Below are positions 19,434-58,002 of a stretch of DNA of 64,000 nt, piece by piece. The notes under the pieces were generated by a model. That model was given only the letters and a program-made list of their open reading frames with translations, was not told the origin of the DNA and ran no database searches. Location: positions 248,001 to 312,000 of the forward strand of contig NZ_VYQF01000004.1 of the NCBI RefSeq assembly GCF_008710285.1, written 5' to 3'. Source of the DNA: Ginsengibacter hankyongi. GTDB lineage: Bacteria > Bacteroidota > Bacteroidia > Chitinophagales > Chitinophagaceae. Each line of letters starts with the position of its first letter. The stretch's first letter is position 1. The position numbers and the translations under genes are program-made.

Positions 19434-19459
19434 TTAATAAAATAATAAATCTTTTGAAT

Positions 19460-24708: not shown

Positions 24709-24752
24709 TTAAATAAAGGAGGGTTGCCTTGCCGGAACCAGATTTAATAATT

Positions 24753-28148: not shown

Positions 28149-29064
28149 TGATCCATTTTGAAGTGTCGGGCTCTTCCATCCTGTTGGTTACTAAAGATTC
28201 GAAAGGTATAGCCGGAGACGACAAAGCATGGTCAGTCATAAATATTCCCATCTGCCTGATGGCCTCATTAGCTGTATATGCTCCGCCGGTAACCTGCCCT
28301 ACCAAAATTTTTCCAGGGACCATTCTTTTAATAAGGTACATATGGTTTTGAGGTATTACCACATTTACCGGGATCGCCACCTGGGATTTATATATTCCGC
28401 TATCCTGCCATATATGCAACATAGGGAAATTGGTTTCCTTAGCATGATTCAATGCGATGTAGGTTTTAATTCCATTTATCAAATCATAAATTTTTTGTGT
28501 AGTGGGATATTGAGGCGATGAAAAATTGGTTGTTACCAATAGGGTATCTTTAACTAAAATTTGATCTATGTGCATGCCATAAACATTTTCGGGCTTATCA
28601 AGGAATGCTTTCATGCTCTTCATGATATTCAATAGGTTGTTATTTATCTTTTTCGATTCCCAATAAAGATGCAGCCTGTTTATCGGGTTCGCAGTTGTTT
28701 CGAGTCCATATTTCCATTCTACCTGGATGCTATCGGGATTGAGCGGTAAGAATATCATAGTTCCGCTTATGCTAAATCCATTAGCCTGCGTTTCAATTAA
28801 AATCGCGTTATATTTAATTTCAGTTATTAAATATCGGCATCCTTCATAGTTAAATATATCTTTATTAGATACACTATCATGTATTATCGTTCCCGGCCAC
28901 CACTTTGGCCATTTAGTCTCATTCATCACATACCGGGACGCACTGTTCATAACACAATGGATTTTTACAACAATAGAGCTATTTACATTTTTTGGTAAAA
29001 ACACATATGCATACGTTACCAACAAACCAATTAAGACTACAACTATTATTAGCCACTTTTTCAT
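28123..29064 (-). CDS. Membrane-anchored SRPBCC plus GyrI-like effector-binding protein
   Basis: A 313-residue protein with one N-terminal membrane helix (LIIVVVLIGLLVTYAYVFL). The first half looks like an SRPBCC (START-like) domain (VMNETKWPKWWPG, then IQVEWKYGLETTANPINRLH), the second like a GyrI/AraC effector-binding domain (QKIYDLINGIKTYIALNHAK and KILVGQVTGGAYTANEAIRQ, ending KWITKIYYPVF). Proteins with this pairing are common in Bacteroidota and may sense or bind a small hydrophobic molecule in the periplasm; none is well studied. No helix-turn-helix is present, so it is not itself a transcription factor. It overlaps the end of the VCBS gene by 26 bp and is divergent from the GH65 gene at 29233. 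Confidence 0.72.
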   Translation of the reverse strand: MKKWLIIVVVLIGLLVTYAYVFLPKNVNSSIVVKIHCVMNSASRYVMNETKWPKWWPGTIIHDSVSNKDIFNYEGCRYLITEIKYNAILIETQANGFSISGTMIFLPLNPDSIQVEWKYGLETTANPINRLHLYWESKKINNNLLNIMKSMKAFLDKPENVYGMHIDQILVKDTLLVTTNFSSPQYPTTQKIYDLINGIKTYIALNHAKETNFPMLHIWQDSGIYKSQVAIPVNVVIPQNHMYLIKRMVPGKILVGQVTGGAYTANEAIRQMGIFMTDHALSSPAIPFESLVTNRMEEPDTSKWITKIYYPVF

Positions 29065-29232: not shown

Positions 29233-31263
29233 ATGAAAAAATTGGTTGTCCTGTTTCTGTTGCATTTCGTCTATCTTTTTTGTTTCTCCCAAAAAATTGA
29301 TTCCTGGAAAATAGCTGCTGATAAAATAGATCCCAACAATTATTATGGAGAAACGGTGGCTAACGGGGTGATAGGAATTGTGTCGTCTCCCATTCCATTG
29401 CAATGTAAAGATGTGGTACTTAACGGCGCCTACGACCAATATGGCCGTGGACGAGTGAGTAATTTTTTGAAGAGTTTTAACCTGGTGAATATGTACCTCG
29501 ATATTGACGGGCATCGGATTGGCGCGGGTGATGCCGCAAATATGCAACAGGTATTGGATATGAAGCATGCAAATCTTACAACAACTTTCGATTACGCCGA
29601 TAAGGCAAAAGTTTCTTATACTTATTATGCATTACGAAATCTTCCTTACACAGTATTGGTTGATGTAACTATCACTGCAAAAAAAGATATCGAAATAATT
29701 CCTGCAAGTGTAATGGAAGCGCCGGATGAATTAAAAGATGTGCAGAATTATTACAACCAGATAGACAGGCCGCACGTAACACTAAGCCTGCTTTCTTCAA
29801 TTGCAAAAAGCCCGACGGGCAAATTAACCCTCGCATCTTCAACTACATTTTTGTTTGATGAACCGCATGGTTCTGAGCCGCAATTAATTCACGAGATGTG
29901 GGATAATAATATGCATTTATCAAAATTTAAAAAGAATTTAAAAGCGGGAACAGTTTACCATTTTGCCATCGCCGGTGCATCTATAACCACGGCCCAGCAT
30001 GACGATCCATTGAATGAAGCGGAGCGGTATGTTATTTATGCAAAGCTGCAGGGCACGCAAAAATTAATTCAATTTCATAATGCCGCATGGGATAGTTTAT
30101 GGAAGAGCGATATAATTATTAATGGTGATGATGCAAGCCAGCGGGATGTGCATGCTGCTATGTATCATCTGTATTCATTTGTAAGAGAAGGAACATCTTA
30201 TAGCCCGTCACCCATGGGTTTAAGCGGATTGGGTTATAACGGCCACGTATTTTGGGATGCTGAATTATGGATGTTTCCTGCAATATTGGTGCTTCATCCT
30301 GAAATGGCAAAAAGTATGGTTGAATATCGTTTTCAAAGACTGGCTGAAGCAAAGCACAATGCATTTGCCCACGGTTATAAAGGCGCCATGTATCCATGGG
30401 AAAGCGCAGCTACCGGCAACGAAGAAACGCCGGTGTGGGCATTGAGTGGCCCCTTCGAACATCATATTACCGCCGACGTTGCTATCGCCGCGTGGAATTA
30501 TTTTGCCGTAACACAGGATACTTCTTGGTTAAGAGAAAAAGGCTTCCCCATAATTAAAGCATGCGCTGATTTTTGGGCAAGCCGTGTCGAAAAAAATGGT
30601 CCGGGTAAATATGATATAAAAAATGTAGTTGCCGCCGATGAATGGGCCGAGAATGTTGACAATAATGCCTTTACTAACGCTGCCGCAAAAGCGAATTTAA
30701 ACTATGCAGTTATGGCTGCAAATATTTTGCATGAGCCGGTAGATAATGAATGGATAGATGTAGAAAAGAATATCCCGATTTTAAAATTGAACGACGGGGT
30801 AACGGCTGAATTTGAAGGATACCATGGGCAAAAAATTAAACAAGTGGATGTAAACCTGCTGGCCTATCCATTAAAAGAGATAACAGATCCACAACAGATA
30901 AGAAAAGATCTGACCTATTATGAAGACCGGGTAGGAGAAGGCTCTCCCGCAATGACTCATGCAATTTTTGCTTTATTATATGCAAAGTTAAACGAACCGG
31001 ACAAAGCTTGGAATGCATTTAAAGAATCATTTATTCCTAATAAAAAAGAACCCTTTGGCGTTTTGGCAGAAACTGCGGGAGGTACCAATCCATATTTTGC
31101 AACAGGTGCCGGGGGATTTTTGCAAAGTGTGCTTATGGGCTTCGGCGGACTTGATATAACTCCCCGGGGAATAACTCAAATAAAAACTTCTTTGCCAAAA
31201 CAATGGAAATCCTTAATTTTAACCGGTATCGGGAAAGATAAAAAAACATTTACGATAAATTGA
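29233..31263 (+). CDS. Glycoside hydrolase family 65 enzyme (acid trehalase / disaccharide phosphorylase group), secreted
   Basis: A 676-residue exported enzyme with a signal peptide ending near FCFSQ. It has the GH65 layout: N-terminal beta-sandwich (to about 270), linker, (alpha/alpha)6 barrel and short C-terminal domain. Catalytic-barrel motifs are GHVFWDAELWMFP (337-349), GYKGAMYPWES (381-391), GNEETPVWALSGPFEHH and AADEWAENVDNNAFTN (467-482), whose Glu470 is the likely general acid. Exported Bacteroidota members resemble acid trehalase-type hydrolases more than cytosolic phosphorylases, so cleavage of an alpha-linked disaccharide in the periplasm is the best guess. It leads into the downstream gene with a 4-bp overlap. 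Confidence 0.88.
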   Translation: MKKLVVLFLLHFVYLFCFSQKIDSWKIAADKIDPNNYYGETVANGVIGIVSSPIPLQCKDVVLNGAYDQYGRGRVSNFLKSFNLVNMYLDIDGHRIGAGDAANMQQVLDMKHANLTTTFDYADKAKVSYTYYALRNLPYTVLVDVTITAKKDIEIIPASVMEAPDELKDVQNYYNQIDRPHVTLSLLSSIAKSPTGKLTLASSTTFLFDEPHGSEPQLIHEMWDNNMHLSKFKKNLKAGTVYHFAIAGASITTAQHDDPLNEAERYVIYAKLQGTQKLIQFHNAAWDSLWKSDIIINGDDASQRDVHAAMYHLYSFVREGTSYSPSPMGLSGLGYNGHVFWDAELWMFPAILVLHPEMAKSMVEYRFQRLAEAKHNAFAHGYKGAMYPWESAATGNEETPVWALSGPFEHHITADVAIAAWNYFAVTQDTSWLREKGFPIIKACADFWASRVEKNGPGKYDIKNVVAADEWAENVDNNAFTNAAAKANLNYAVMAANILHEPVDNEWIDVEKNIPILKLNDGVTAEFEGYHGQKIKQVDVNLLAYPLKEITDPQQIRKDLTYYEDRVGEGSPAMTHAIFALLYAKLNEPDKAWNAFKESFIPNKKEPFGVLAETAGGTNPYFATGAGGFLQSVLMGFGGLDITPRGITQIKTSLPKQWKSLILTGIGKDKKTFTIN

Positions 31264-31835
31264 TACTGAAAAAGACAACTGCTTTATTTTTCATCACTCT
31301 GTTTTTATTCAATCTTTTTGGATACAGGTTTGTTTTTACCTATATGCAGCAGAAAGTATCAGATCAGCTGGAAGTGAAGCTGGATAAGAGTTTATACAGT
31401 GATGCGGACCTGATTGAATTAAAAGTTCCGATGAATCTTCCTTATCAAACTAACTGGTCGGCCTATCAAAGATATAACGGTGAAATTGAGATGGATGGCA
31501 TCATGTACAAATATGTAAAAAGAAAAGTATCTAATGATACGCTTTACTTAATGTGCATACCGAACACTAAAAAAATGACACTTGAAACAGCCAAGAATGA
31601 TTTTTTCAAGATGTCTAATGATTTAACCCAAAATAACAATTCAAAGAAGTCTGATAATTCCAAAACGATATCGTTTAAAATTCTCCAGGGCGAATATGAT
31701 CAGTATTCATTCGCTTTGCATACCGTAAACCCTTATGAAAATAATATGAATTCATGGCCTGCTGTGGATTCAGAATCATTAATTTCTTCTCCACACGTTT
31801 CTCCTGAACAGCCTCCTGATCAGTTGGGAGCATAA
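31260..31835 (+). CDS. Conserved membrane-anchored hypothetical protein (Bacteroidota)
   Basis: A 191-residue protein. The start is TTG at 31260, overlapping the GH65 stop as TTGA; the first internal ATG would delete half of the N-terminal membrane helix (TTALFFITLFLFNLFGYRFV), so TTG is preferred. The outward part has SDADLIELKVPMNLPYQTNW, YNGEIEMDGIMYKYVKRKVS and a Pro-rich tail ending SSPHVSPEQPPDQLG. I recall similar proteins as frequent, uncharacterised Bacteroidota proteins, sometimes near TonB receptor genes. Single membrane pass or uncleaved signal; no enzyme motif. Translational coupling to GH65 suggests co-expression, but a direct link in function is only inferred. Confidence 0.68.
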   Translation: MILKKTTALFFITLFLFNLFGYRFVFTYMQQKVSDQLEVKLDKSLYSDADLIELKVPMNLPYQTNWSAYQRYNGEIEMDGIMYKYVKRKVSNDTLYLMCIPNTKKMTLETAKNDFFKMSNDLTQNNNSKKSDNSKTISFKILQGEYDQYSFALHTVNPYENNMNSWPAVDSESLISSPHVSPEQPPDQLGA

Positions 31836-31930: not shown

Positions 31931-33259
31931 ATGAGGAAATTCCTTTTATTTTCTTGCAGTGTTATTATACTGTGGGGATGTAATTCAAAAAAAGACTACG
32001 TAGCTGTTTTTAATAACCCCATCCTGTTTTGCAAAACTGTTTACCAGTTAAACGGGGTGGTAATGGGAAATAATTTCAGCCCCATTGTTGCATCGAGAAA
32101 TTATTTGTATGCAAGCATCGCTGCCTACGAGGTAATAGCTGCGGGCTATCCGGAAAAATATCAATCACTCGCAGGCCAGCTTAATGGGCTTAAATCAATG
32201 CCTCGCCCCGGAGAAGGCAAAAAAATAAATTTCGAATTTGCTTCCTTACTGGCCTATTGCAATTTAGGCAGCTCAGTTACTTTTCCTGAAGGAAGCATGG
32301 ACGAATATGTAGATAGTCTTAAAAAGCTCGCAACCGACCATGGAATGCCTACAGATGTTTTTAATAATTCTGTTGCATTTTCTGATACCATTTCGCATGC
32401 AATTTTAAACTGGAGTAAAAAGGATAATTATGCTCAAACAAGAAGTGCAGAAAAATATTCGGTAACTGATGAGCCTGGCAGGTGGGTGCCCACACCTCCT
32501 GCTTATGCTTCAGCAATGGAGCCACACTGGAACCAGATAAGGACGCTGGTAATGGATAGTGCTACTGAGTTTGTTCCCCCGCCACCATACCCGTTTAACG
32601 TAAAGGATAGCAACAGCGACTATTACAAGCAGGTAATGCTTATAAAAAATGCGATAGAAAACCTGACGCCGGAACAAAAGCATATAGCAGATTTTTGGGA
32701 CGATAATCCTTTTAAATTAAACGTGTCCGGACATGTTATGTTTGGAAGCAAAAAGTTTTCCCCTCCCGGCCACTGGATGAGCATTGTAGGGATCGCGGCT
32801 GAAAAATCCAAAGCCGACTTCCCGACTACCGTTTATGCCTATGCGAAAACCAGCATTGCTTTATTCGACGCTTTTATTCAATGTTGGGACGAAAAATATC
32901 GCCACAATACCGTGCGGCCTGAAACAGTGATTAATAAGTATTTTGATGCCGGCTGGCAACCCTATTTGCAAACTCCTCCATTTCCTGAATATACATGTGG
33001 CCACTCCACTTGCTCCTCGGCAGCAGCCGAAGTCTTAACGAGTGTTTTTGGCGACAACTTTTCTTATACCGATTCTACTGAGCTTGAATTTGGAATTAAA
33101 AACCGTAGTTATAAATCCTTCAGGGATGCTGCTGAAGAAAATAACTGGGCAAGATTTTACGGCGGAATTCATTTTCACCATTCCTGTATTGTCAGCACAG
33201 AATATGGAAAGAAAGTAGGTGAGCTGGTGGTGAATCGTTTGAAAATGAAAAAGGGATAA
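31931..33259 (+). CDS. Vanadium-dependent haloperoxidase-type (PAP2 superfamily) lipoprotein, copy 1
   Basis: A 442-residue protein starting at the ATG at 31931, which gives a clean lipoprotein signal (MRKFLLFSCSVIILWGC, Cys17); the frame stays open back to 31865 but that extension is not signal-like. The vanadate/phosphate pocket of the vanadium haloperoxidase group is visible: Lys322 and Arg329 in KYRHNTVRPE, TCGHS at 355-359 with His358, and Arg408 with His414 in ARFYGGIHFHH. Spacings match vanadium chloroperoxidase (Lys353/Arg360, SGH 402-404, Arg490/His496). The usual Ser of SGH is replaced by Cys356. Function could be halide oxidation or acid phosphatase activity. First of three paralogues in this run. 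Confidence 0.87.
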   Translation: MRKFLLFSCSVIILWGCNSKKDYVAVFNNPILFCKTVYQLNGVVMGNNFSPIVASRNYLYASIAAYEVIAAGYPEKYQSLAGQLNGLKSMPRPGEGKKINFEFASLLAYCNLGSSVTFPEGSMDEYVDSLKKLATDHGMPTDVFNNSVAFSDTISHAILNWSKKDNYAQTRSAEKYSVTDEPGRWVPTPPAYASAMEPHWNQIRTLVMDSATEFVPPPPYPFNVKDSNSDYYKQVMLIKNAIENLTPEQKHIADFWDDNPFKLNVSGHVMFGSKKFSPPGHWMSIVGIAAEKSKADFPTTVYAYAKTSIALFDAFIQCWDEKYRHNTVRPETVINKYFDAGWQPYLQTPPFPEYTCGHSTCSSAAAEVLTSVFGDNFSYTDSTELEFGIKNRSYKSFRDAAEENNWARFYGGIHFHHSCIVSTEYGKKVGELVVNRLKMKKG

Positions 33260-33289
33260 ATAATTTATTAAACTAAAAATATTTGAAAG

Positions 33290-34156
33290 TTGAAGTTTTT
33301 AGCTGAAAAGAAAATTTACTACACATTGCGAATTGCTTCTGCCATGTGCTTCATAGGTCATGGTTCATTTGGAATTATTACCAAATCTATCTGGAGTAAT
33401 TATTTTGGTGTATTTGGAATTTCACCTGGTACGTCCTATCACTTAATGCCAATTGTAGGGAGCATCGATGTATTAATGGGTATTATCATTCTGGTATACC
33501 CAATGCGTGCGATTATAACATGGCTGGTTATATGGGGTGCAGTCACCGCTTTGCTAAGGCCATTATCTGGTGAGCCATTTGCCGAATTTATTGAACGTTC
33601 CGGAAATTTTGGAGCTCCGCTGGCACTCATTATTCTTTCTGGTTACGCTGGCGACACGTTAAAAAAAATGCTGTCCCCGGTAAAACCGGCTGCTCTTGTT
33701 GATACGAAATTATTAAGGGCGGTAACCACTTGCCTACGGTTTGTGGTGTGTTTTCTTTTTGTTGGGCACGGATGGCTTAATATAATAGACAAAAAAGATT
33801 TGGTTGACCTGTACATGAGGTTGGGCTTTGTTAATCCTGTTAAAACAGCGGGGTTTATTGGCATATTCGAAATTGTTGCCGGGCTTTGGGTTTTGATCCG
33901 TCCGATCCGCTCATTTGTATTGTTACTGTTTGTATGGAAAATAATAAGCGAGCTTTTTTATCCGCACTATGAAATATTTGAATGGATAGAGCGTGGAGGA
34001 AGCTATGGCGCAATCCTGGCACTTTGGTTCGCTTTAGGCATTCCATCATCCGTTGCAAAAAAGGATTTAGTGGGCAAATCAGGTTCCCGTTGGCTCAATT
34101 ATAACCGGGCAAGAATAAATTTTTCATTACCTGTTTATAAAATGCTATTTAAATGA
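33290..34156 (+). CDS. DoxX-like membrane protein with internal tandem duplication
   Basis: A 288-residue membrane protein with a probable TTG start at 33290 (no ATG precedes the first helix). It contains two copies of one module: residues about 14-120 (CFIGHGSFGII ... IVGSIDVLMGIIILVYPMRA ... FAEFIERSGNFGAPLAL) and about 147-255 (FLFVGHGWLNII ... GIFEIVAGLWVLIRPIRS ... EIFEWIERGGSYGAILAL). Each copy has about four helices and a shared GHG, a mid-helix acidic residue (D/E) and ER.G.(F/Y)GA. The module resembles the DoxX superfamily; fusion would give the pseudo-dimer that single-copy proteins make by pairing. It sits 30 bp after haloperoxidase copy 1 and overlaps the next gene by 4 bp (ATGA). 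Confidence 0.75.
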   Translation: MKFLAEKKIYYTLRIASAMCFIGHGSFGIITKSIWSNYFGVFGISPGTSYHLMPIVGSIDVLMGIIILVYPMRAIITWLVIWGAVTALLRPLSGEPFAEFIERSGNFGAPLALIILSGYAGDTLKKMLSPVKPAALVDTKLLRAVTTCLRFVVCFLFVGHGWLNIIDKKDLVDLYMRLGFVNPVKTAGFIGIFEIVAGLWVLIRPIRSFVLLLFVWKIISELFYPHYEIFEWIERGGSYGAILALWFALGIPSSVAKKDLVGKSGSRWLNYNRARINFSLPVYKMLFK

Positions 34157-34578
34157 AAAAACTACTGTTTATATGTATTATTATTTCTTCCTGTAACAAT
34201 AGCAGCAGTAATAAAATTGATCCCAAGCATATTGAAAGTTTAGCATTAGATTTTATGAAAGCAAGTGTTATTCCTCAAATGAAAGACCCGAAACCTTATG
34301 AAATAGTGGGAGCAAAAGTGGTGACGAAAACTGTGGCGGATAACATCAACGACTACAGGTTTACGTATGAGCATTTATCACTGAGCCATGAAGATTCGGT
34401 TTTTAACAAGAAATGCCTCGACTCAGTAATTGAAATTTCGAAGCATCCGGATTCAATTGTAAGCATTACCGTAGACATTGGATACAAAACCAGGTACAAA
34501 CGCGGGGATATTGTAACAGATAGTATCAAATTAGGGTACAATTCCGAAAAGGATAAGGTAACCTTTTGGCCTTTTTAA
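34153..34578 (+). CDS. Small lipoprotein of unknown function
   Basis: A 141-residue protein whose signal is very short: MKKLLFICIIISSCNNSSSN with the lipobox Cys at 14. The mature part has DPKPYEIVGAKVVTKTVADN followed by YRFTYEHLSLSHED, and ends GYNSEKDKVTFWPF. It has an alpha/beta look and no catalytic motif I recognise. Its ATG overlaps the TGA of the tandem DoxX gene, so the two are translationally coupled and probably act together in the envelope. It lies between haloperoxidase copies 1 and 2 in the same operon. Confidence 0.7.
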   Translation: MKKLLFICIIISSCNNSSSNKIDPKHIESLALDFMKASVIPQMKDPKPYEIVGAKVVTKTVADNINDYRFTYEHLSLSHEDSVFNKKCLDSVIEISKHPDSIVSITVDIGYKTRYKRGDIVTDSIKLGYNSEKDKVTFWPF

Positions 34579-34636
34579 AATATTATTTCACCAATGTAAA
34601 ACGCAAAAAAGCAAAATCAATTCTTAAAAATAAAGT

Positions 34637-35989
34637 ATGAAAAGAAACCCGGTTTTTAGTTCAATGTTGTTGTTTACAGTAGTCTTTGTAATACTGTTCT
34701 CCTCCTGTACCCAGAAAAAAAATGACTACGTAAAGATTATGCATAATCCTTTTTTATATAACGATGTGGTGCATAAGCTGAATTATGTGATCATATACGA
34801 TATTTTTTCTCCCCCTGTCGCAGCCAGAGTTTTTGCGTATTCCAATCTTGCGGCGTATGAAGTACTAGCAAATAATAAAGACCATCTTTCTTCTTTAGAA
34901 GGAAAAGTAAAAGGATTGAATAATGTCCCGCGTCCTGCCGCAAATGCCAAAATTGATTATCCTTTTGCTTCTATAGTTGCTTTAATTAAAGTAGGAAATG
35001 CTCTTACCTTTTCAAGCGATACCATGAAGCTTCTTGCTGATTCAGTAAAATCGCTTGCTAAAGATGCCGGCATGCCCGATGACTTATTTGACGGTTCAGT
35101 GCAATTCGGTAACCAGGTTGCAGATTCAATTCTTTCCTGGAGCAAAAAAGATAACTATGCTCAAACTCGTGGATCACGTTTTACGATATCCAACCTGGAG
35201 GGCCACTGGACTCCAACACCTCCCGGATATTTCAGCGCCGTTGAACCTAAATGGCCCACGCTTAGATGTATGGTTATGGATTCGGCAAATATGTTTCCAC
35301 CGCCACCGCCAGTTCCTTTTAGTAAAGATTCTGCCAGTGAATTTTATAAAATGGCTAAAGAGGTGATGGTAACTGGCAATACGCTTGATTCAACCAAAAA
35401 ATGGATTGCCAATTTTTGGGATTGCAACAGTTTTAAATTACATGTGGAAGGCCATGCAATGTTTGCAACAAAAGCAATGACGCCTGGCGGGCATTGGATG
35501 GAAGTGGTTGGTACTATTTGCAGAAATAATAACGCAGACTTTTATAAAACTGCAGCTGCTTATACCGGCGCAAGTATTGGTATTTACGATGCATTTATTT
35601 GTTGTTGGTTTACAAAATATAAATTTGATGTTCTTCGTCCGGAAACGTATATAAATAAATATATTAACCAGGACTGGATGCCCTATCTGCAAACCCCCCC
35701 ATTTCCTGAGTATAACAGTGCCCACTCTACCATTTCAGCGGCAGCAGCTACAGTACTGGGGTCTATGTTTAAAAATACTGCTTTCAGAGATTCTTCGGAA
35801 CGGGAATGGGGATGGCCAGATCGTAGTTTTAAAACATCAGATGAGGCAGCAGTTGAAGTTTCTTACAGCAGGTTTTACGGAGGTATACATTACAAACCAT
35901 CTGTGTTGACAGCTTATGTGCAAGGCAAACAAATTGGCAATCTGGTGATGAGCAAATTAAACGCTAAGGAAGCAAAGAGTTTAAAATAA
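34637..35989 (+). CDS. Vanadium-dependent haloperoxidase-type lipoprotein, copy 2
   Basis: A 450-residue lipoprotein (LFSSC, Cys24) closely related to copy 1: both share KKNDYV/KKDYVA after the Cys, the WSKKDNYAQTR block, the PTPP.Y segment and YLQTPPFPEY. Pocket residues: Lys327 and Arg334 (KYKFDVLRPE), NSAHS at 360-364 with His363, Arg412 and His418 (SRFYGGIHYKP). Here the SGH Gly is replaced by Ala362 while the Ser is kept, the reverse of copy 1. Same uncertainty between haloperoxidase and phosphatase. The copies arose by duplication and have different pockets, so they may differ in substrate or activity. Confidence 0.87.
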   Translation: MKRNPVFSSMLLFTVVFVILFSSCTQKKNDYVKIMHNPFLYNDVVHKLNYVIIYDIFSPPVAARVFAYSNLAAYEVLANNKDHLSSLEGKVKGLNNVPRPAANAKIDYPFASIVALIKVGNALTFSSDTMKLLADSVKSLAKDAGMPDDLFDGSVQFGNQVADSILSWSKKDNYAQTRGSRFTISNLEGHWTPTPPGYFSAVEPKWPTLRCMVMDSANMFPPPPPVPFSKDSASEFYKMAKEVMVTGNTLDSTKKWIANFWDCNSFKLHVEGHAMFATKAMTPGGHWMEVVGTICRNNNADFYKTAAAYTGASIGIYDAFICCWFTKYKFDVLRPETYINKYINQDWMPYLQTPPFPEYNSAHSTISAAAATVLGSMFKNTAFRDSSEREWGWPDRSFKTSDEAAVEVSYSRFYGGIHYKPSVLTAYVQGKQIGNLVMSKLNAKEAKSLK

Positions 35990-36055
35990 AATCGTAGATC
36001 CAAATTGATTGAAACCAAATTTTAAAAATAATTATCAATCCAAAAAAAACTTTTT

Positions 36056-37141
36056 ATGAAACAATTATCAATTTTATTAAGCGTTTTTTTTATCTTATGT
36101 ATTTCAAATAATGTTAGGGCGCAAGGCTGCGTTGCCATACGCAGTACAGGAGGTATATGTACTATGGATCATGGTTCGGAAACTGATACTCTTTCCAAAT
36201 GGGAATTCAATGCCAACAACCGTTATTTCAAATCGTTTCGGCACTTTGTAGGCACGAAAGAACAAAAGCAAAGAGTAGCGCTGGGTACCGAAGTTATTAA
36301 TCACGCTTATACCCTGGATCTTACACCAACCTATCACCTCAATAAATGGTGGTCTTTCTCAATAGATGTGCCTGTTATAGCCAACTCACGGTCATCCTTA
36401 TACGAACATGATGGAAAGCACCGGTTTACTACCCATGCATTTGGCCTGGGGGATGTTCGTCTTACTGCATACAGGTGGGTTCTTGATCCTGCAAAAATGC
36501 CCAAAGGAAATATCCAATTTGGATTGGGCATTAAATTGCCAACAGGTGATTATAAATACCAGGACATTTTCCATAAAAATGATTCAACCCTTGTGCTTGG
36601 ACCGGTAGATCAATCCATTCAGTTAGGTGATGGTGGCACCGGATTTAGTACCGAGTTGAATGCCTATTATAATTTCTCTAAAAGCTTTAGCGTGTACAGT
36701 AATTTATATTACCTCGTGAGCCCGCGTGAGCAAAATGGTACACTTACTTCAAGAGGAGGCACTCCTTCCGCTGCAAGCATTAAAAACGGAAGTTTTGTTA
36801 TGAGTGTTCCGGATCAGTATATGATAAGAGCCGGAGCCAATTTTACAGCGAAGGATTTTATTTTCTCTCTGGGCTTTCGAGACGAATGCCTGCCTGTTCA
36901 TGATTTAATAGGAGGCAGTAAAGGTTTCAGAAGGCCGGGATATATACTTTCTGCAGAACCTGGAGTAACCTACACTTTCAAAAAGATAAGTGTTTATGCA
37001 TTTGTGCCCGTTGCTTTCGAGCGCAATCGTACTCAAAGTGTAGCCGATAAAATTCAAACTCAGCTAACCGGCACTTACACCCAGGGAGATGCAGCATTTG
37101 CAGATTATACAATTAATGTTGGCTTTACAACAAGATTTTAA
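36056..37141 (+). CDS. Outer-membrane beta-barrel protein (transporter, MetA-pathway/phenol-type)
   Basis: A 361-residue exported protein: signal peptide to about residue 22 (NVRAQ), then a Cys-containing N-terminus (GCVAIRSTGGICTMDHGSE) and an antiparallel barrel of about 12-14 strands, such as YHLNKWWSFSIDVPVIANSR, NIQFGLGIKLPTGDYKYQDI and VTYTFKKISVYAFVPVAFER, ending in a C-terminal Phe (NVGFTTRF). The 'G.G.KLPTGDYKYQD' pattern belongs to the outer-membrane transporter group seen with aromatic degradation. In this run it lies 66 bp after haloperoxidase copy 2 and 55 bp before another barrel, suggesting transport of the substrate or product of these enzymes. Substrate unknown. Confidence 0.8.
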   Translation: MKQLSILLSVFFILCISNNVRAQGCVAIRSTGGICTMDHGSETDTLSKWEFNANNRYFKSFRHFVGTKEQKQRVALGTEVINHAYTLDLTPTYHLNKWWSFSIDVPVIANSRSSLYEHDGKHRFTTHAFGLGDVRLTAYRWVLDPAKMPKGNIQFGLGIKLPTGDYKYQDIFHKNDSTLVLGPVDQSIQLGDGGTGFSTELNAYYNFSKSFSVYSNLYYLVSPREQNGTLTSRGGTPSAASIKNGSFVMSVPDQYMIRAGANFTAKDFIFSLGFRDECLPVHDLIGGSKGFRRPGYILSAEPGVTYTFKKISVYAFVPVAFERNRTQSVADKIQTQLTGTYTQGDAAFADYTINVGFTTRF

Positions 37142-37196
37142 TTAAGAAATTAAGATGTAAAACCTATTAATTATAAAATTTATCAAAACAAATGCA

Positions 37197-38138
37197 ATGA
37201 ATCAAAATATTATTTATAAAATAAAACAAATCGGCTTACTTGCTTTTTCAGTTTTTATTTTTAGTCAGATGCAGGCTCAAACAGATGCTGATGCTATTAT
37301 GATGAATAAAAATCAATTATGCAGCGGGCCTGCGTATGGTTATTCTACATGGGATCATTACTGGGAGGGAACATTACACCGAATAAATCGAAACATAGGC
37401 ACTGTAACTACGCAATCGGTCATGTATATGGCTGTTTATGGCATCACAGGAAAACTAAACGTAATGGCCAGCGCGCCTTATGTTTGGACCCATGCATCTG
37501 CAGGAACATTACATAGCTCCAGGGGGCTACAGGATATAGCTGTTTTTGTAAAATGGAAACCTGTTGCTTATTCATTCGCAAAAAATAAATTATCTGTTTT
37601 TGCATTAGGTGGTTTTTCCACACCGCTTACCAATTACGAAATTGATTACCTGCCTTTAACCATTGGCCTTGGTTCTACAAATCTTACAGGAAAGGCAATG
37701 GTAGATTTTCAGCATAAAAGATTTACAATTACTGCATCCGGGGCGTATGTATGGAGAAGTAATGTAAAAATTGACAGAACAACTTATTACGATACCCGGC
37801 AACATCTTACCAATGAGGTGGAAATGCCCAATGCAGCTCAATTTCAGTTTAGGAGCGGGTATCGGGGTAGATACTTAATAGCAGAAGGGGTTGTAACCAA
37901 CTGGACAACCCTGAGTGGCTTTGATATAACCCGTAATAATATGCCTTTTCCAAGTAACCGGATGAATATGACCACAGTCGGCGCAGCTATTAAATATACT
38001 TTGAAACAAGATACGCACTTATCAGTAATGGCAGGAGGCAACTATACCGTTACAGGAAGGAATGTAGGGCAGGCCGGCGCTTTTAACATCGGGGCTTTTT
38101 ATGCTTTTTATGTAAAAAACAACGGAAACAAAAAATAA
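37197..38138 (+). CDS. Outer-membrane beta-barrel protein (transporter-like)
   Basis: A 313-residue exported protein with a signal peptide ending around QMQAQ. The mature protein starts DADAIMMNKNQLCSGPAYGY and contains repeating amphipathic strands (GITGKLNVMASAPYVWTHAS, LQDIAVFVKWKPVAYSFAKN, NKLSVFALGGFSTPLTNYEI). This matches barrel transporters that usually sit beside the preceding type. The chain ends FYAFYVKNNGNKK, without the classic terminal Phe; the aromatic strand FYAFYV is just before a basic tail. Placed between the other barrel and haloperoxidase copy 3 (18 bp downstream), in the same operon. Function is inferred only from fold and place. Confidence 0.72.
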   Translation: MNQNIIYKIKQIGLLAFSVFIFSQMQAQTDADAIMMNKNQLCSGPAYGYSTWDHYWEGTLHRINRNIGTVTTQSVMYMAVYGITGKLNVMASAPYVWTHASAGTLHSSRGLQDIAVFVKWKPVAYSFAKNKLSVFALGGFSTPLTNYEIDYLPLTIGLGSTNLTGKAMVDFQHKRFTITASGAYVWRSNVKIDRTTYYDTRQHLTNEVEMPNAAQFQFRSGYRGRYLIAEGVVTNWTTLSGFDITRNNMPFPSNRMNMTTVGAAIKYTLKQDTHLSVMAGGNYTVTGRNVGQAGAFNIGAFYAFYVKNNGNKK

Positions 38139-38156
38139 TATCAAAAACGAATTAAT

Positions 38157-39704
38157 ATGAAAAGGCAATTTTTCTTTTACTTAATGCTTATATGTTCAGC
38201 AGCAATGTTAGGCTCCTGTTCAAAAAATATAATTGAAAGAACAGATAATTTACCTGCACTCACGCCATCTGATATCGATATTAATGCAGGTACCTGGAAA
38301 ACTATTTTACTAAAAAGGCCAGATACTTTTGCAGTGAATGCTCCGGCGCTAACAAATTCCCCGGCCTACCTTGCTGAGTTAAATGAGATAAAAGGGTTGC
38401 AGCAAAATATAAACAGCGCTCAAAAAAGTATCATTAAATACTGGAGCGCAGGTTCAGTATTAAGATGGAATGAAATTATGCGGGAACTGGTTGAAAAATA
38501 TAATCTCCCGCCCTATCAAAATCCTGATGGCACGTACCCTGCTCCCAATGCAAACAATCCGTTTGCTTACCCGCAGTTTCCATTTTCAAATCCTCCATAT
38601 GCGGCAAGAGCTTTTGCTTATATAAGTGCTGCACAATATGATGCATTGGTGGCTGCATGGTATTATAAAAAAATGTATAATCGTTCTGCCCCTTATACAG
38701 TAGATTCATCGATAAAAGCATTGGTTCCTAAAACTGTTTTACCGGCTTACCCTTCAGAAGATGCTGTAGTGGCAGGTGTTACAGTCGAAATGATGAAATT
38801 GCTTTTTCCTACTGAGATAGCCTTCATTCAGCAAAAGCTGGAAGAGGAAGAAGAATATCGTCTGATAAGCGGAGCTAATGTACGCAGCGATATTGTTGCC
38901 GGTGAGGCGCTGGGCAGGCAGGTTGCCGCTGTATTTGTTGCACGTGCCAAATCGGATCATGCAGGCGCAGCTGGCGGATCTCCTCAGTTATGGAGTAGTT
39001 TAGCTTCTAATATTTCTGCCCAGGGCCAAACTCCCTGGATTAGCCTGGAATTTCCCAAACGCCCTCCCATGCTGCCATTGTTTGGAAACGTTAAACCATT
39101 TCTGTTTGATTCATTAACGGTGATTGCATTGCGCCCGGGACCCCCACCTTCAACATCAAGTGACGACTTCCACCAGGAAAATGCCGCTGCCTGTGCTCAA
39201 ATCAAAAATCCAACAAGAGAGCAGAACCGGATTGTTCAATTTTGGGCTGATGGGGTTGGTACTTTTACCCCTTCCGGCCATTGGAATGCTATTGCTGCGG
39301 ATGATTTTATAAAACAAAATTATAGCGAGGTAAGATGGGCGAGAAATATGGCTTTATTGAATATGGGACAGATGGATGCAGCGATTGTTTGCTGGAATAC
39401 CAAATTTTATTACTTCAATCCAAGACCAAGTCAAATGATTGCTGATATAAAGACACTAACGGGTGTTCCTAATTTCCCATCTTATATTTCCGGTCATTCA
39501 ACTTTTAGTGAGTCTGCATCTACTATATTAGGCCATATTATTCCTGCCAATGCTTCTAAATATGAAGCCATGTCTGCAGAAGCTGCCAAATCAAGATTTA
39601 TTGCCGGGATACATACCAAACTGGATTGCGATGCAGGTTTGAAGGTCGGTAAAAGCATTGGAGATTTTGCTGTATACAGGGCAATGACGGATGGGGCTGA
39701 ATAA
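38157..39704 (+). CDS. Vanadium-dependent haloperoxidase-type lipoprotein, copy 3 (canonical pocket)
   Basis: A 515-residue lipoprotein (MLGSC, Cys21), longer and more divergent than copies 1 and 2. The pocket is canonical: Lys416 and Arg423 in KFYYFNPRP, SGHS at 445-448 with His447, and Arg480 with His486 in SRFIAGIHTK. Lys-to-Arg spacing is 7 and Arg-to-His is 6, as in vanadium chloroperoxidase. Additional family segments are SHWxA-like PSGHWNAIAADDF and the FPSYISGHSTFSES helix start. It is therefore the copy most likely to bind vanadate and act as a true haloperoxidase or phosphatase. It closes the coding run; two copies of a hairpin repeat follow. Confidence 0.9.
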   Translation: MKRQFFFYLMLICSAAMLGSCSKNIIERTDNLPALTPSDIDINAGTWKTILLKRPDTFAVNAPALTNSPAYLAELNEIKGLQQNINSAQKSIIKYWSAGSVLRWNEIMRELVEKYNLPPYQNPDGTYPAPNANNPFAYPQFPFSNPPYAARAFAYISAAQYDALVAAWYYKKMYNRSAPYTVDSSIKALVPKTVLPAYPSEDAVVAGVTVEMMKLLFPTEIAFIQQKLEEEEEYRLISGANVRSDIVAGEALGRQVAAVFVARAKSDHAGAAGGSPQLWSSLASNISAQGQTPWISLEFPKRPPMLPLFGNVKPFLFDSLTVIALRPGPPPSTSSDDFHQENAAACAQIKNPTREQNRIVQFWADGVGTFTPSGHWNAIAADDFIKQNYSEVRWARNMALLNMGQMDAAIVCWNTKFYYFNPRPSQMIADIKTLTGVPNFPSYISGHSTFSESASTILGHIIPANASKYEAMSAEAAKSRFIAGIHTKLDCDAGLKVGKSIGDFAVYRAMTDGAE

Positions 39705-39746
39705 AATATAGGGTAAACGTGTTCCTGTTTAAAACAGGATTCTAAT

Positions 39747-39806
39747 AAAGATTTTTTCGTAATCAGTGTTAATACGGTCCTACAGTTCTCTGCGGGACCC
39801 TTTTTA
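39747..39806 (+). repeat. Hairpin repeat, copy 1 (terminator-like)
   Basis: The core CGTAATCAGTGTTAATACGG is identical to copy 2 and leads into a stem GGTCC-TACAG / CTGCG-GGACC around a TTCT loop (9 of 10 pairs), then TTTTT. It lies 43 bp after the haloperoxidase copy 3 stop and may end that operon. Just before it is a small CCTGTTT/AAACAGG palindrome (39724-39738). The rest of the 376-bp gap (39705-40080) is AT-rich and holds copy 2 and nothing else I can support. Confidence 0.7.
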
Positions 39807-39930
39807 AGATTTTAAAATTAATTAAAAATAAATATATAAAACAACTATTTAAATACCACGCAGAACAAAGTAAAATGCGAAATGATAAGACAATCAATTA
39901 AAATAGTGGGTGCAATGCCAGTGACATATT

Positions 39931-39991
39931 AAAGATTTTTTTCGTAATCAGTGTTAATACGGTCCTGTAGTTCTCTACGGGGCCCTTTTTT
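39931..39991 (+). repeat. Hairpin repeat, copy 2
   Basis: Same CGTAATCAGTGTTAATACGG core as copy 1, 184 bp downstream. The stem is complete here (GGTCCTGTAG / CTACGGGGCC, TTCT loop, 10 pairs with two G-T), followed by TTTTTT. Where copies 1 and 2 differ in the stem (TACAG/CTGCG against TGTAG/CTACG), both arms change, so pairing is kept or improved. That supports a structure acting as RNA. It ends 89 bp before the DoxX-like gene at 40081, so it may lie in that gene's leader. Confidence 0.7.
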
Positions 39992-40080
39992 AATACTTTT
40001 TATTATTAATGATCATAAGCAGTTTTGCCATAAGAGGATATGTTTTCGTTCGTGTGTTTTAAAAAGTAAAAAGAATTATC

Positions 40081-40635
40081 ATGCAATCAAAAGTACCATC
40101 CCGTAAAACACCAGCTGTATTTTCAGCATTTTCCATCTTGCGTATAAGCGTCGGGGTAGTATATTTTTGGTTTGGCGCATTGAAATTTTTCCAGGGATTG
40201 AGCCCTGCAGAACAGCTTGCCATGCAAACGATACATAAAATTACTTTTGGGTTTATCAATGATCGTCTCAACATCATTATGTTGGCGTCATGGGAATGCC
40301 TTATTGGCGTTTTCCTTATTATAGGCAAATGGATAAAGCCAGCTCTAATGTTGTTATTTCTCCATATGGTTTGCACGTTTTCCCCTTTTATATTTTTCCC
40401 GGATCAGGTATTTCATATTGCCCCTTATGGTTTATCACTTACGGGTCAATACATCGTCAAGAATATAATAATAATTGCAGCCGGACTTGTATTGTGGAAA
40501 GTAGAAACACAAAAAGCAATATCTTCTGAAGTCTCATCAATTGTTTCTAAAAGTGAAGAATTTATGCAGGGAAAAAAGATAAGAGAGCATAGCGTTAAAG
40601 AGTATGCTATTAATGACAATGGCATTAGTAACTGA
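40081..40635 (+). CDS. DoxX/YkgB-like membrane protein
   Basis: A 184-residue membrane protein with four helices (about 17-40, 62-84, 88-108 and 124-143). Motifs ILRISVGVVYFWFGALKFF, ECLIGVFLIIGKW and LSLTGQYIVKNIIIIAAGLV fit the DoxX/DUF417 (YkgB) group: an acidic residue in helix 2, a Gly-rich GQY.VKN before helix 4. The last 40 residues are a charged cytoplasmic tail (SKSEEFMQGKKIREHSVKEY). Role unknown; relatives are linked to redox or chlorine stress in other bacteria. It lies downstream of the haloperoxidase run, set between repeat copies 2 and 3, and could protect against oxidised halide, but this is speculation. Confidence 0.72.
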   Translation: MQSKVPSRKTPAVFSAFSILRISVGVVYFWFGALKFFQGLSPAEQLAMQTIHKITFGFINDRLNIIMLASWECLIGVFLIIGKWIKPALMLLFLHMVCTFSPFIFFPDQVFHIAPYGLSLTGQYIVKNIIIIAAGLVLWKVETQKAISSEVSSIVSKSEEFMQGKKIREHSVKEYAINDNGISN

Positions 40636-40906: not shown

Positions 40907-42166
40907 ATGAAAAACTGGCGAATAAAACTTTCCCTTTTTATTAATTATTTCGTATTTGCTATTTTATTGAACAGCTCTGGCATAGCAATTTTGCAGGTGC
41001 AAAATAATTTCGGCGTTACGAAAAATGCCGCAGCATGGATTGATCCATGTAAGGATTTAAGCATTGCAATCGTATCTTTTCTTGTGGCTTCTTATATTGC
41101 AAAGTTTGGTTACAAGCGTGCGATGTTGTTTGCGTTGGGCATTATCACGGCCATTTGTTTTATCATCCCTAATACTCCTTCGTTTTTTGCAATTAAATTA
41201 TTATTTGTAGCGGTAGGTTCGTGCTTTGCATTAATTAAAATGAGCGTTTACAGTACTATTGGTATTGTTACAAAAGATTCAAAAGAACATATCAGCATGA
41301 TGAACTTTATTGAATCTTTTTTTATGGTGGGCAATCTTTCCCTGTATTTTATTTTTAGTTCATTTGTTGATAATTCCAACCCGCAATCTACTGCCTGGTT
41401 AAATGCTTATTATTTAATTGGAGGCCTGGCATTGGTGGCATTTATTTTATTATTTTCTGCGAAGCTGGATGAATCTGTGGCGCATACGAATGCAGGAAAA
41501 CCAGAACAGCCTAAGTTTTCTGATATGTTTAAATTAATGGGAGAGCCCATAGTTATTGCCTTTATTTTCTCAGCGTTTTTTTATGTATTGATTGAACAAA
41601 GCATACAAAATTTTTTACCAACATTTAATAATAAAGTGCTGTTATTACCAGCCGTGCTTAGCATACAGATGGGCAGTATTTTAGCAGGTTCAACAGCGTT
41701 AGGAAGATTTTTTGCGGGCCTGGTCCTGAAGAAGCTCAATTGGTTTTATGCAATCGTAGGAAGTCTATTACTGGCTGCTTTGCTGGTTATTTTAGCAATG
41801 CCGCTTGCAAAAAATGAGGCAGGCAGGCATATAACCGGTTGGTTGGATGCGCCAATCGCAGCTTACATTTTTCCTTTAGTCGGTTTATTATTGGCGCCTG
41901 TATATCCTGCAATAAATTCGGTAATTCTAAGCTCTTTACCAAAGCCGAAACACGGAGTTATGTCTGGACTAATAATTATTTTTTCAGCAATCGGAGGCAC
42001 GTGTGGTTCATTAATCACTGGCTATATTTTTGATAAGTATAATGGACAAACGGCATTTTATTTTACATTGGTTCCCATTGGCATTTTAATAGTTTCTCTT
42101 TCGGTATTTAAAAGGCTTCAAAAAAAGCCTTTAGTTGAAGCTTTAAATACGGGTGCAATGCATTAA
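40907..42166 (+). CDS. MFS sugar transporter
   Basis: A 419-residue, 12-helix major facilitator. N-half: LSLFINYFVFAILLNSSGIA (helix 1), SYIAKFGYKRAMLFALGIIT (motif A-like loop 2-3). C-half: FFAGLVLKKLNWFYAIVGSL and YIFDKYNGQTAFYFTLVPIG. It loosely resembles the fucose/glucose (FucP-like) branch, but the assignment to a branch is weak. Because it is 24 bp upstream of a cytoplasmic trehalase, trehalose is the likely cargo. An inverted repeat CGAATA-7-TATTCG at 40863-40881 lies 25 bp before the start and could be an operator or part of the promoter. Confidence 0.85.
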   Translation: MKNWRIKLSLFINYFVFAILLNSSGIAILQVQNNFGVTKNAAAWIDPCKDLSIAIVSFLVASYIAKFGYKRAMLFALGIITAICFIIPNTPSFFAIKLLFVAVGSCFALIKMSVYSTIGIVTKDSKEHISMMNFIESFFMVGNLSLYFIFSSFVDNSNPQSTAWLNAYYLIGGLALVAFILLFSAKLDESVAHTNAGKPEQPKFSDMFKLMGEPIVIAFIFSAFFYVLIEQSIQNFLPTFNNKVLLLPAVLSIQMGSILAGSTALGRFFAGLVLKKLNWFYAIVGSLLLAALLVILAMPLAKNEAGRHITGWLDAPIAAYIFPLVGLLLAPVYPAINSVILSSLPKPKHGVMSGLIIIFSAIGGTCGSLITGYIFDKYNGQTAFYFTLVPIGILIVSLSVFKRLQKKPLVEALNTGAMH

Positions 42167-42190
42167 CAATTTTATTTAAAATGAATTTAA

Positions 42191-43687
42191 ATGAGTGTCA
42201 AAAATATTTTTTCTCTTGGCGAATTATTTGAAAAAGTTCAGTTGCAAAAAGTTTTCCCCGACAGCAAAACTTTTGTAGATTGTACTCCTAGGTTTGACCT
42301 TGCGTATATTCTTCAACGTTATGATGAACAAAAAAAAGAACCTGGATTTAATCTATCTTTTTTTGTTCATGAATATTTTATTGAACCAAAATCTATATCA
42401 TCCGGTTATATAAGCGATACAAGCCTTCCAATAGAAACTCATCTTGAATTGCTGTGGGATGTACTTACACGCCAGCCTGAGGATACGAATGATTCATTAG
42501 TTGATTTGCCCGATCCTTATATTGTGCCAGGCGGCCGTTTCAGGGAAATATATTATTGGGATAGTTATTTTACAATGCTGGGTTTACAGGTATCAAACCG
42601 TGCGGACATGATCCTGAACATGGCCAATAATTTTTCATACCTCATTGATCGTTTTGGTTATGTACCTAACGGAAACAGAACTTACTTTCTTGGCCGGTCT
42701 CAGCCACCTTTCTTTGCCTGTATGGTAAAACTTTTGGCAGAAGAAAAGGGCGCAGAGATTTTAATAGAATACCTGCCAAGGCTTCAAAAAGAATATGATT
42801 TCTGGATGAAGGGAATTGAGGAATTAACTGATGAAAATAAATCTATAAACCGTGTTACACTTTTGCAGGGTGAAAATATATTGAATCATTATTGGGACGA
42901 ACATGATTTTCCACGACCTGAAGCCTTTGCAGAAGAAATAAAATTATCAGCAACAGCAAAAGATAAAAAAACCTTGTACCGGCATCTGCGTGCAGCCTGC
43001 GAATCAGGCTGGGATTTTTCTTCACGCTGGTTTAAAGATGTGAAAGATTTTTCAACTATTCATACTGCCGATATTATTCCTGTTGACTTGAATTGTCTTT
43101 TATTTCATCTTGAACAGACCCTTGCCGAAGGATATGAATTGGCCGGCAATAAAAACTCATCTGAGAAATTTATTGCTTTAGCTGCTTCAAGGAAAGAAGC
43201 AATAAATACATACTGCTGGAATGAAAACAAAGGATTTTATTTTGATTATGATTATGTTGATGATGTTCAAAAAAATTCTTTAACGCTTGCTGCAGCATTT
43301 CCATTATTTTTTGAAATTGCTTCGCAGCAACAGGCTGATAGCATTGCCAAAAATTTGCAGCAATATTTTTTGAAACCGGGCGGCTTGATCTCAACTACTG
43401 AAACAACAACGCAACAATGGGATGCACCTAACGGTTGGGCGCCATTACAATGGATTGCAATAATTGGATTGAGAAATTATAAACACGATGATCTGGCAAA
43501 AGATGTTGCCACGCGATGGATGAATATTAATAAGAAAGTTTACCAGGCTACCGGTAAGATGATGGAGAAATACAATGTGGTAGCAACTGACACCAAAGCC
43601 GGTGGAGGTGAATATCCCGCGCAGGATGGCTTTGGCTGGACTAACGGTGTATACCTTGCCTTAGAAAAATCATTTGGAAAATTGTAA
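42191..43687 (+). CDS. treF: Alpha,alpha-trehalase, GH37 (cytoplasmic type)
   Basis: A 498-residue enzyme that splits trehalose into two glucose molecules. Both GH37 signatures are present: PGGRFREIYYWDSY (113-126) and QWDAPNGWAPLQ (409-420). Catalytic residues match E. coli periplasmic trehalase: Asp275 in ESGWDFSSRW (general acid) and Glu474 in GGGEYPAQDGFGWTNG (general base). There is no signal peptide, so it resembles cytosolic TreF rather than TreA. With the MFS carrier 24 bp upstream it forms a two-gene trehalose uptake and cleavage unit. A nested hairpin and T-run after it (43732-43807) ends transcription before the convergent TonB receptor gene. Confidence 0.95.
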   Translation: MSVKNIFSLGELFEKVQLQKVFPDSKTFVDCTPRFDLAYILQRYDEQKKEPGFNLSFFVHEYFIEPKSISSGYISDTSLPIETHLELLWDVLTRQPEDTNDSLVDLPDPYIVPGGRFREIYYWDSYFTMLGLQVSNRADMILNMANNFSYLIDRFGYVPNGNRTYFLGRSQPPFFACMVKLLAEEKGAEILIEYLPRLQKEYDFWMKGIEELTDENKSINRVTLLQGENILNHYWDEHDFPRPEAFAEEIKLSATAKDKKTLYRHLRAACESGWDFSSRWFKDVKDFSTIHTADIIPVDLNCLLFHLEQTLAEGYELAGNKNSSEKFIALAASRKEAINTYCWNENKGFYFDYDYVDDVQKNSLTLAAAFPLFFEIASQQQADSIAKNLQQYFLKPGGLISTTETTTQQWDAPNGWAPLQWIAIIGLRNYKHDDLAKDVATRWMNINKKVYQATGKMMEKYNVVATDTKAGGGEYPAQDGFGWTNGVYLALEKSFGKL

Positions 43688-57977: not shown

Positions 57978-58002
57978 AATAAAAAAGAAAAAAATTAGCG
58001 AT

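Follow-up and report, generated by a model that had tools for sequence, protein, structure and literature searches.

The stretch of DNA analysed here, called the window, comprises 64,000 nucleotides of Ginsengibacter hankyongi (Bacteroidota, Chitinophagaceae; NCBI RefSeq assembly GCF_008710285.1, contig NZ_VYQF01000004.1, positions 248,001 to 312,000 of the forward strand). Within it lies a gene set encoding three lipoprotein-like relatives of vanadium haloperoxidases (VHPOs), referred to as A, B and C, of which A carries a conserved cysteine in place of the serine of the vanadate loop. An initial annotation had described an operon with three haloperoxidase-type lipoproteins, a duplicated DoxX protein, a coupled lipoprotein and two outer-membrane barrels at positions 31931 to 39704, and seven same-strand open reading frames (ORFs) were indeed found there. 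The gene set is operon-like, as had been proposed, with different boundaries, as it extends in the 5' direction to the GH65 and x31 genes, from 29233. The features of the region, in window coordinates, are as follows.

16458-21157, plus strand: SusC/SusD glycan-uptake pair of the outer membrane (SusC 16458-19433, TIGR04056, 642 bits; SusD 19454-21157, Pfam SusD_RagB)
21367-24708 and 24729-28148, plus strand: two FG-GAP/UnbV_ASPIC (VCBS-type) proteins (Pfam FG-GAP_3, UnbV_ASPIC)
28123-29064, minus strand: x28, a conserved gene between the UnbV and GH65 genes, without family match
29233-31263, plus strand: GH65 kojibiose hydrolase (NCBIfam NF053734, 1156 bits, cut-off 800; PDB 7fe3, E 2.3e-248)
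31260-31835, plus strand: x31, a small conserved protein immediately 5' of A, without family match
31931-33259, plus strand: A, a ZgVIPO1-family lipoprotein-like protein in which Cys356 replaces the vanadate-loop Ser (PDB 4cit, E 3.7e-124)
33290-34156, plus strand: D1, a tandem DoxX-like membrane protein (DoxX 20.3 bits, cut-off 23.6)
34153-34578, plus strand: L, a small lipoprotein-like protein without family match, overlapping D1 by 4 nt
34637-35989, plus strand: B, a second ZgVIPO1-family lipoprotein-like protein, loop S-A-H (Pfam PAP2 31.1 bits, cut-off 27.2)
36056-37141, plus strand: OM1, a predicted FapF/COG4313-like outer-membrane barrel (AlphaFold2 pLDDT 76; best Foldseek match FapF, 5o67, E 4.6e-14)
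37197-38138, plus strand: OM2, an outer-membrane protein, Phenol_MetA_deg (Pfam PF13557 32.5 bits, cut-off 22)
38157-39704, plus strand: C, a PAP2/VHPO-like lipoprotein-like protein with canonical SGH and the full phosphatase-type signature (Pfam PAP2 37.5 bits)
39961-39984, plus strand: intrinsic-terminator-like hairpin 3' of C (10 pairs and a T run)
40081-40635, plus strand: DoxX2, a single DoxX protein (Pfam DoxX 26.6 bits, cut-off 23.6)
40907-43687, plus strand: MFS transporter (40907-42166; Pfam) and GH37 trehalase (42191-43687; NCBIfam TreA/TreF subfamilies)

Homology places A, B and C, all lipoprotein-like, in the VHPO/PAP2 superfamily. The match of A to ZgVIPO1 of Zobellia galactanivorans (PDB 4cit and 4usz, both titled as a vanadium-dependent iodoperoxidase) spans residues 21-461 of A's frame, and identity to ZgVIPO1 amounts to 45% for A, 44% for B and 26% for C, with A and B 46% identical to each other. 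B and C exceed the Pfam PAP2 cut-off; A has no Pfam PAP2 match and reaches 22 bits for VCPO_2nd against a cut-off of 27. The vanadate-site Lys, Arg, loop His, second Arg and axial His are retained in all three proteins, with K-x6-R and R-x5-H kept; the roles and numbering of these residues in ZgVIPO1 are those that we take them to have. The translated sequences of A, B, C and L each show a lipobox-like Cys; surface anchoring, as proposed in the initial annotation, would call for an export signal after this lipid Cys, and no clear acidic stretch of the assumed kind was seen there.

The vanadate loops read YTCGHST in A (C-G-H), YNSAHST in B (S-A-H) and YISGHST in C (S-G-H). The letters are those given in the initial annotation; of its three supposed SGH variants, two differ and that of C is canonical. 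Its description of haloperoxidase-type relatives with a variant loop agrees with the ZgVIPO1 homology and the Cys loop, and B has Ser-Ala-His where a ZgVIPO1-type loop has Ser-Gly-His. Because the loop Ser expected of a VHPO is replaced by Cys, A is filed here as a ZgVIPO1 homologue rather than as a proven VHPO. The Lys, Arg, Arg and His had also been placed at exact vanadium chloroperoxidase (VCPO) spacing: the residues are kept, and the short spacings alone match. The distance from Arg to the loop Ser/Cys is 27, 27 and 22 residues in A, B and C, and that from the loop His to the second Arg 50, 49 and 33, against 42 and 86 in VCPO according to the residue numbers in the accessible part of PMC10278073, which also lists the loop Ser402 among the residues holding vanadate via hydrogen bonds.

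The conservation of these loops was read from 220 distinct sequences, including A, B and C of the window and ZgVIPO1, with ORFs of less than 230 residues dropped; the relatives were gathered by searching with A or with the A1 profile (the best 80 out of 172; for further places, the fetched ones only) and do not form a random sample. At 60% or more identity to A, Cys occupies the loop position in 102 of 103 distinct sequences, the exception being L138 (60%), which has Ser, and no Cys loop occurred below 60% identity among the collected sequences. Other rows nearer A than C comprise 61 S-G-H, 10 S-A-H and one A-N-H. Since the comparison of Cys-loop with SGH rows was sorted by loop, its 102 against 61 at the loop column follows from the sorting itself; free of this circularity are the identity cut and a tree built with the two loop columns masked. 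In this loop-masked tree (119 rows, without the C group, roughly half of the Cys rows and five rows on long branches, the A-N-H row being one of these five), the Cys state required one change and the S-A-H state five, and the 52 Cys rows formed one exclusive clade with support 98. An earlier tree of 115 of the 220 rows gave this clade a sister group that carries Ser and includes L138. The Cys-loop copies are diverse, with pairwise identities down to 54% and a median of 64% (half of the copies sampled), and both Cys codons are in use (TGC 62, TGT 39 in 101 fetched copies).

On the strength of the identity cut and the loop-masked tree, the TCGHS loop of A is a conserved sequence feature of single origin, and the NSAHS loop of B, a Gly-to-Ala exchange, is probably a recurrent and permissive change; having arisen five times, the SAH loop was dropped as a special variant. 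A search of 395 genomes of the phylum with a Cys-loop DNA pattern gave matches in 8, seven of them at members of the clade: six from the family of the window, counting its own genome, and G338 of the same class. The eighth, G483, was considered as a Cys-loop match outside the clade and discarded, as no frame at that locus matches A. The copy of G338 (L149) lies outside the window's family and may reflect horizontal transfer. A literature search found nothing on a Ser-to-Cys haloperoxidase in a coverage that left out most subscription papers.

The surroundings of the Cys are conserved as well. Lys, the first Arg, Phe and the loop His are invariant over 102 Cys-loop, 61 SGH and 10 SAH sequences, and the Trp beside the site is present in 101 of 102, 61 of 61 and 9 of 10, respectively. 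The remaining site residues are retained in at least 100 of the 102 Cys-loop sequences, with one Arg408-to-Leu exchange and one row gapped there. This Leu, which stands where the second vanadate Arg would be, belongs to L015 and L040 of a single genome, for which a third copy was also counted; it is the sole case among 101 non-gapped sequences and may be a natural loss or an assembly error. A reading of A as a pseudoenzyme that binds substrate or an oxyanion would fit the replacement of one key hydrogen-bond residue; set against the retention of the other site residues in at least 100 of the 102 sequences, it is very improbable.

The Cys could alternatively mark new chemistry, with a thiol beside the vanadate relaying oxygen or halogen through a sulfenic acid or sulfenyl halide, or acting as a redox switch. 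Its presence in 102 of 103 close relatives, encoded by both codons and with one origin, would suit such a role, as would the finding that no Ser occurs inside the Cys clade in the rows read, even though the Ser of the sister clade is one base change away. Against it, the loop offers no other conserved Cys as a partner, and we consider this reading quite unlikely. A CxxxxC disulfide between Cys356 and Cys361 was rejected likewise, position 361 being Cys in just 16 of 102 sequences.

A second recurrent feature is the pairing of VHPO-like genes with UnbV/FG-GAP genes across the phylum. From 76 profile-positive genomes, 35 were chosen blind to UnbV, covering 29 genera with several close relatives among them, and gave 71 VHPO-like places, with no more than 4 candidates scored in each genome by the profile search. 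At least 45 of the 71 places lie within 10 kb of an UnbV_ASPIC match, against about 1.7 expected under random placement with the clustering of UnbV genes ignored, and in at least 33 the match is directly upstream. A linked pair was present in at least 28 of the 35 genomes, with none in seven among the matches listed. UnbV genes occur in all 35 genomes (from at least 1 to 12 each), and 14 control genomes had none among the matches listed. With full flanks, an UnbV-type protein lies within about 9 kb in 36 of 49 SGH loci and in 22 of 52 Cys-loop loci, and in another genome a gene 98% identical to ZgVIPO1 stands directly 3' of three UnbV/FG-GAP genes, which repeats the pairing of the window. No paper naming a haloperoxidase together with UnbV or FG-GAP was found within the same literature coverage, and a query for vanadium haloperoxidase with Chitinophaga or Bacteroidota gave the enzyme in none among the matches listed. 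The pairing may already be familiar to others, since the authors of PMC8407465 state, in the accessible part of that paper, that VHPO genomic contexts were compared.

C carries the complete signature of PAP2 acid phosphatases, K-x6-RP, SGH and SR-x5-H-x3-D. The Asp four residues after the axial His (H+4) is present in the aligned acid phosphatase 7f17, and in the C group this Asp and the Ser before the Arg occur in 43 of 46 rows, the other three being gapped there. The Asp is absent from ZgVIPO1, from all 102 Cys-loop rows (one gapped) and from all 10 SAH rows; H+4 is S, C or T in 101 of the 102 Cys-loop rows (the other gapped) and Ser in B, so that A and B lack the acid phosphatase signature. 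The initial annotation had raised the case that all three are plain acid phosphatases, which by signature would apply to C and not to A or B. Fungal VCPO may also have Asp at H+4, and the mark is for this reason suggestive at most; by it, C would resemble the phosphatases, and A and B would resemble ZgVIPO1.

The phosphatase case can be widened to a rival for the whole locus, in which A, B and C would all be PAP2-type phosphoryl-His phosphatases that dephosphorylate phosphorylated glycans or glycolipids taken up via SusCD, with vanadate merely an inhibitor-like mimic. A gene set rich in sugar hydrolases and transporters, the Pfam PAP2 matches of B and C, and the signature of C with its partial fold matches to acid phosphatases all speak for it. 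A and B, in turn, lack the Asp at H+4 and have an iodoperoxidase as best solved relative, at 44-45% identity, and A has no Pfam PAP2 match at all. Even for C, whose structure is predicted with a pLDDT of 89, the best full-length fold match is 4usz/4cit (about 450 columns, E 1.6e-13, TM 0.56 by query and 0.69 by target), followed by NapH-type and fungal chloroperoxidases, and acid phosphatases cover about 200 residues only. We regard phosphatase activity of all three as a real but doubtful possibility. For A and B, the relation to ZgVIPO1, the missing Asp and the common pairing with UnbV make a peroxidase somewhat likelier; C would be an oxyanion enzyme of its own and is more likely a phosphatase.

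Maps of 100 fetched loci revealed a recurring gene order of UnbV genes, x28 on the other strand, GH65, x31, A, OM1, OM2 and C, with DoxX, MFS and trehalase genes toward the end. Many of these loci hold the set in part, and some (L082, L087, L093 and L098 among them) show A alone. Counting the longest locus per distinct protein with enough flanking DNA, Cys-loop loci have x31 in 48 of 72 and GH65 in 39 of 72 on the upstream side, followed by OM1 (30 of 66), OM2 (29 of 66), C (29 of 66), trehalase (20 of 66) and MFS (12 of 66) genes; in SGH loci, x31 and GH65 each occur in 5 of 53. A clustering of 81 Cys-loop loci that was independent of the window genes gave the same picture, with x28 in 21 and a LacI regulator in 18 (family checked for one member). 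Separately, carboxymuconolactone decarboxylase (CMD)/AhpD-like genes were observed near such loci at L095:19019-19576 (Pfam) and, by eye, at L230:9124-12714 of the window's own genome (contig C31).

D1, L and B form a block that lies on one or the other side of A in the window, L057 and L058; outside the window, L was seen in L057 and L058 only among the fetched loci. A-type and B-type genes likewise meet only in these three, and an A- or B-type gene together with C is commoner. Since a Ser-type gene of the B clade fills the slot of A between x31 and OM1 in L222, L223 and L224, A and B look, from gene order, like alternative occupants of one slot that meet here. The division of labour among three paralogues that had been proposed for this operon is weak, because the window, L057 and L058 are the only fetched loci in which A and B share an operon-like set, and we rejected it as a general trio. 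Two further observations concern relatives of these proteins. At L206:9256-9996 (contig C12 of the same genome), a 247-residue ZgVIPO1-like frame covers the C-terminal part only, is 48% identical to A with an SGH loop, looks truncated and has a SusC-like gene nearby; at L204:10782-11555, a tandem DoxX homologue adjoins, on the opposite strand, a VHPO-like gene that is only very distantly related (31% to A).

The gaps between the genes from A through C measure 30, -4, 58, 66, 55 and 18 nt, followed by 376 nt after C. In view of these short gaps and the terminator-like hairpin after C, it is plausible that the genes from A to C form one transcription unit on a single mRNA. Two near-identical hairpin and T-run stretches lie 3' of C, about 185 nt apart (39704-40081), of which the terminator scan flagged the second only; terminator-like hairpins in the region number 11 against 10.5 in shuffles, which is no excess, and a sigma-70 promoter scan of the region gave fewer matches than shuffles and was uninformative.

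Among the accessory proteins, the duplication of D1 was borne out, its halves being 30% identical (E 7e-13) with DoxX matches slightly under the Pfam cut-off. The two barrels also stood, OM1 by a predicted structure nearest FapF and OM2 by its Phenol_MetA_deg match; DraIII, the only PDB sequence match of OM2 (E 4e-4), was taken as chance. An RclC-like function for DoxX2 was dropped, the RclC match falling far under the cut-off, and paralogues of x31 and OM1 elsewhere in the genome offered no clear functional clue.

The sugar-use setting of the gene set had gone unnoticed in the initial annotation. With SusCD, a kojibiose hydrolase that passes the equivalog model NF053734 and has PDB 7fe3 as its nearest solved relative, an MFS transporter and a trehalase, the set is, by its gene families, a putative kojibiose/trehalose-type (alpha-glucoside) sugar operon. 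Elsewhere in the window, a gene at 46277-49723 on the minus strand encodes a protein of 1148 residues joining ThuA (trehalose utilisation), glucose/sorbosone dehydrogenase, PKD and cytochrome c domains, with alpha-amylase-type, PfkB kinase and MFS genes as neighbours, and a second SusD (57964-59769) is followed by an UnbV protein (59862-63437, UnbV match).

Altogether, our preferred and still tentative reading, to which we assign somewhat less than an even chance, is that of an alpha-glucoside uptake set with ZgVIPO1-family vanadate/H2O2 peroxidases A (and B) and a separate enzyme C. It draws on observed homology, ligand residues, origin and conservation of the Cys, gene order and UnbV pairing. 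Judging from the protein families, SusCD together with the UnbV proteins would capture and import an alpha-glucoside, kojibiose hydrolase and trehalase would free glucose, OM1 and OM2 would serve as channels, and C would work apart from these as an oxyanion enzyme, probably a phosphatase. A, and B where present, may be peroxidases of the cell envelope that depend on vanadate and H2O2 and oxidise a halide, which one being unreadable from the sequence, or an organic compound, and the conserved Cys that replaces the vanadate-bonding Ser in A may tune or redox-gate the site. Enzyme activity, halide, subcellular side and the role of the Cys are what we infer in this reading. According to the accessible part of PMC9296495, the Zobellia iodoperoxidase gene vIPO3 is expressed at higher levels with Ascophyllum nodosum than with alginate, which by analogy would be compatible with a stress or defence role.

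Several points weigh against this reading. The loop Ser that holds vanadate is absent from A, the remaining enzymes of the gene set, hydrolases and transporters, include no recognised source of H2O2, and AhpD/CMD-like genes occur in just 8 of 81 Cys-loop loci. GH65 is not nearby in 33 of 72 Cys-loop loci, the sampling was query-led and the related genomes are not independent. The Asp at H+4 is found in 8 of 61 SGH relatives, and sequence alone cannot settle the chemistry of A, B and C because VHPOs and PAP2 phosphatases have one common site. Nor can the halide be predicted from clustering, as an assay showed a Rhodopirellula protein grouped with iodoperoxidases to be a chloroperoxidase with a preference for bromide (PMC12871659, accessible part).

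A bolder extension would see a clade of thiol-assisted vanadate enzymes, with a catalytic or redox-sensing Cys tied to sugar uptake with UnbV/FG-GAP proteins, and would take the UnbV-VHPO pair for a module of the cell envelope that is general in the Bacteroidota; we hold this to be rather unlikely. The natural Cys at the vanadate-holding loop position, in about 100 distinct sequences, amounts to a ready experiment on the role of that residue. The pairing of UnbV/FG-GAP with VHPO genes provides a genomic lead to the physiology of bacterial iodoperoxidase-type and UnbV proteins, and the Cys-loop clade links both to sugar-uptake genes.

Among known systems, the dextran locus FjDexUL of Flavobacterium johnsoniae resembles the window in its SusC/SusD genes and in FjGH65A, a GH65 of the same equivalog (accessible parts of PMC10316084 and PMC8626586). 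As listed in the accessible part of PMC10316084, it comprises SusR, C, D, E, GH66, GH31, GH97 and GH65, a list which, unlike the window, has no haloperoxidase, UnbV or trehalase. OM1 resembles the FapF/COG4313 channels in its predicted fold, at 14-16% identity to FapF. The PAP2 or class A acid phosphatases (PDB 7f17, 1d2t) share K-x6-RP, SGH and SR-x5-H-x3-D with C and match its C-terminal part, yet C is about twice their length and its full-length fold is nearest ZgVIPO1; A and B differ from them by the absence of the Asp and of the exact loop. ZgVIPO1 has Ser-Gly-His where A has Cys-Gly-His and B Ser-Ala-His, and no homologues of GH65, x31, OM1, OM2 or C were found in 20 kb around the gene 98% identical to it. 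It is nonetheless like A and B in full-length homology, in the same Lys, Arg, His, Arg and His with the Trp and Phe, and in the UnbV/FG-GAP genes directly 5' of that near-identical gene.

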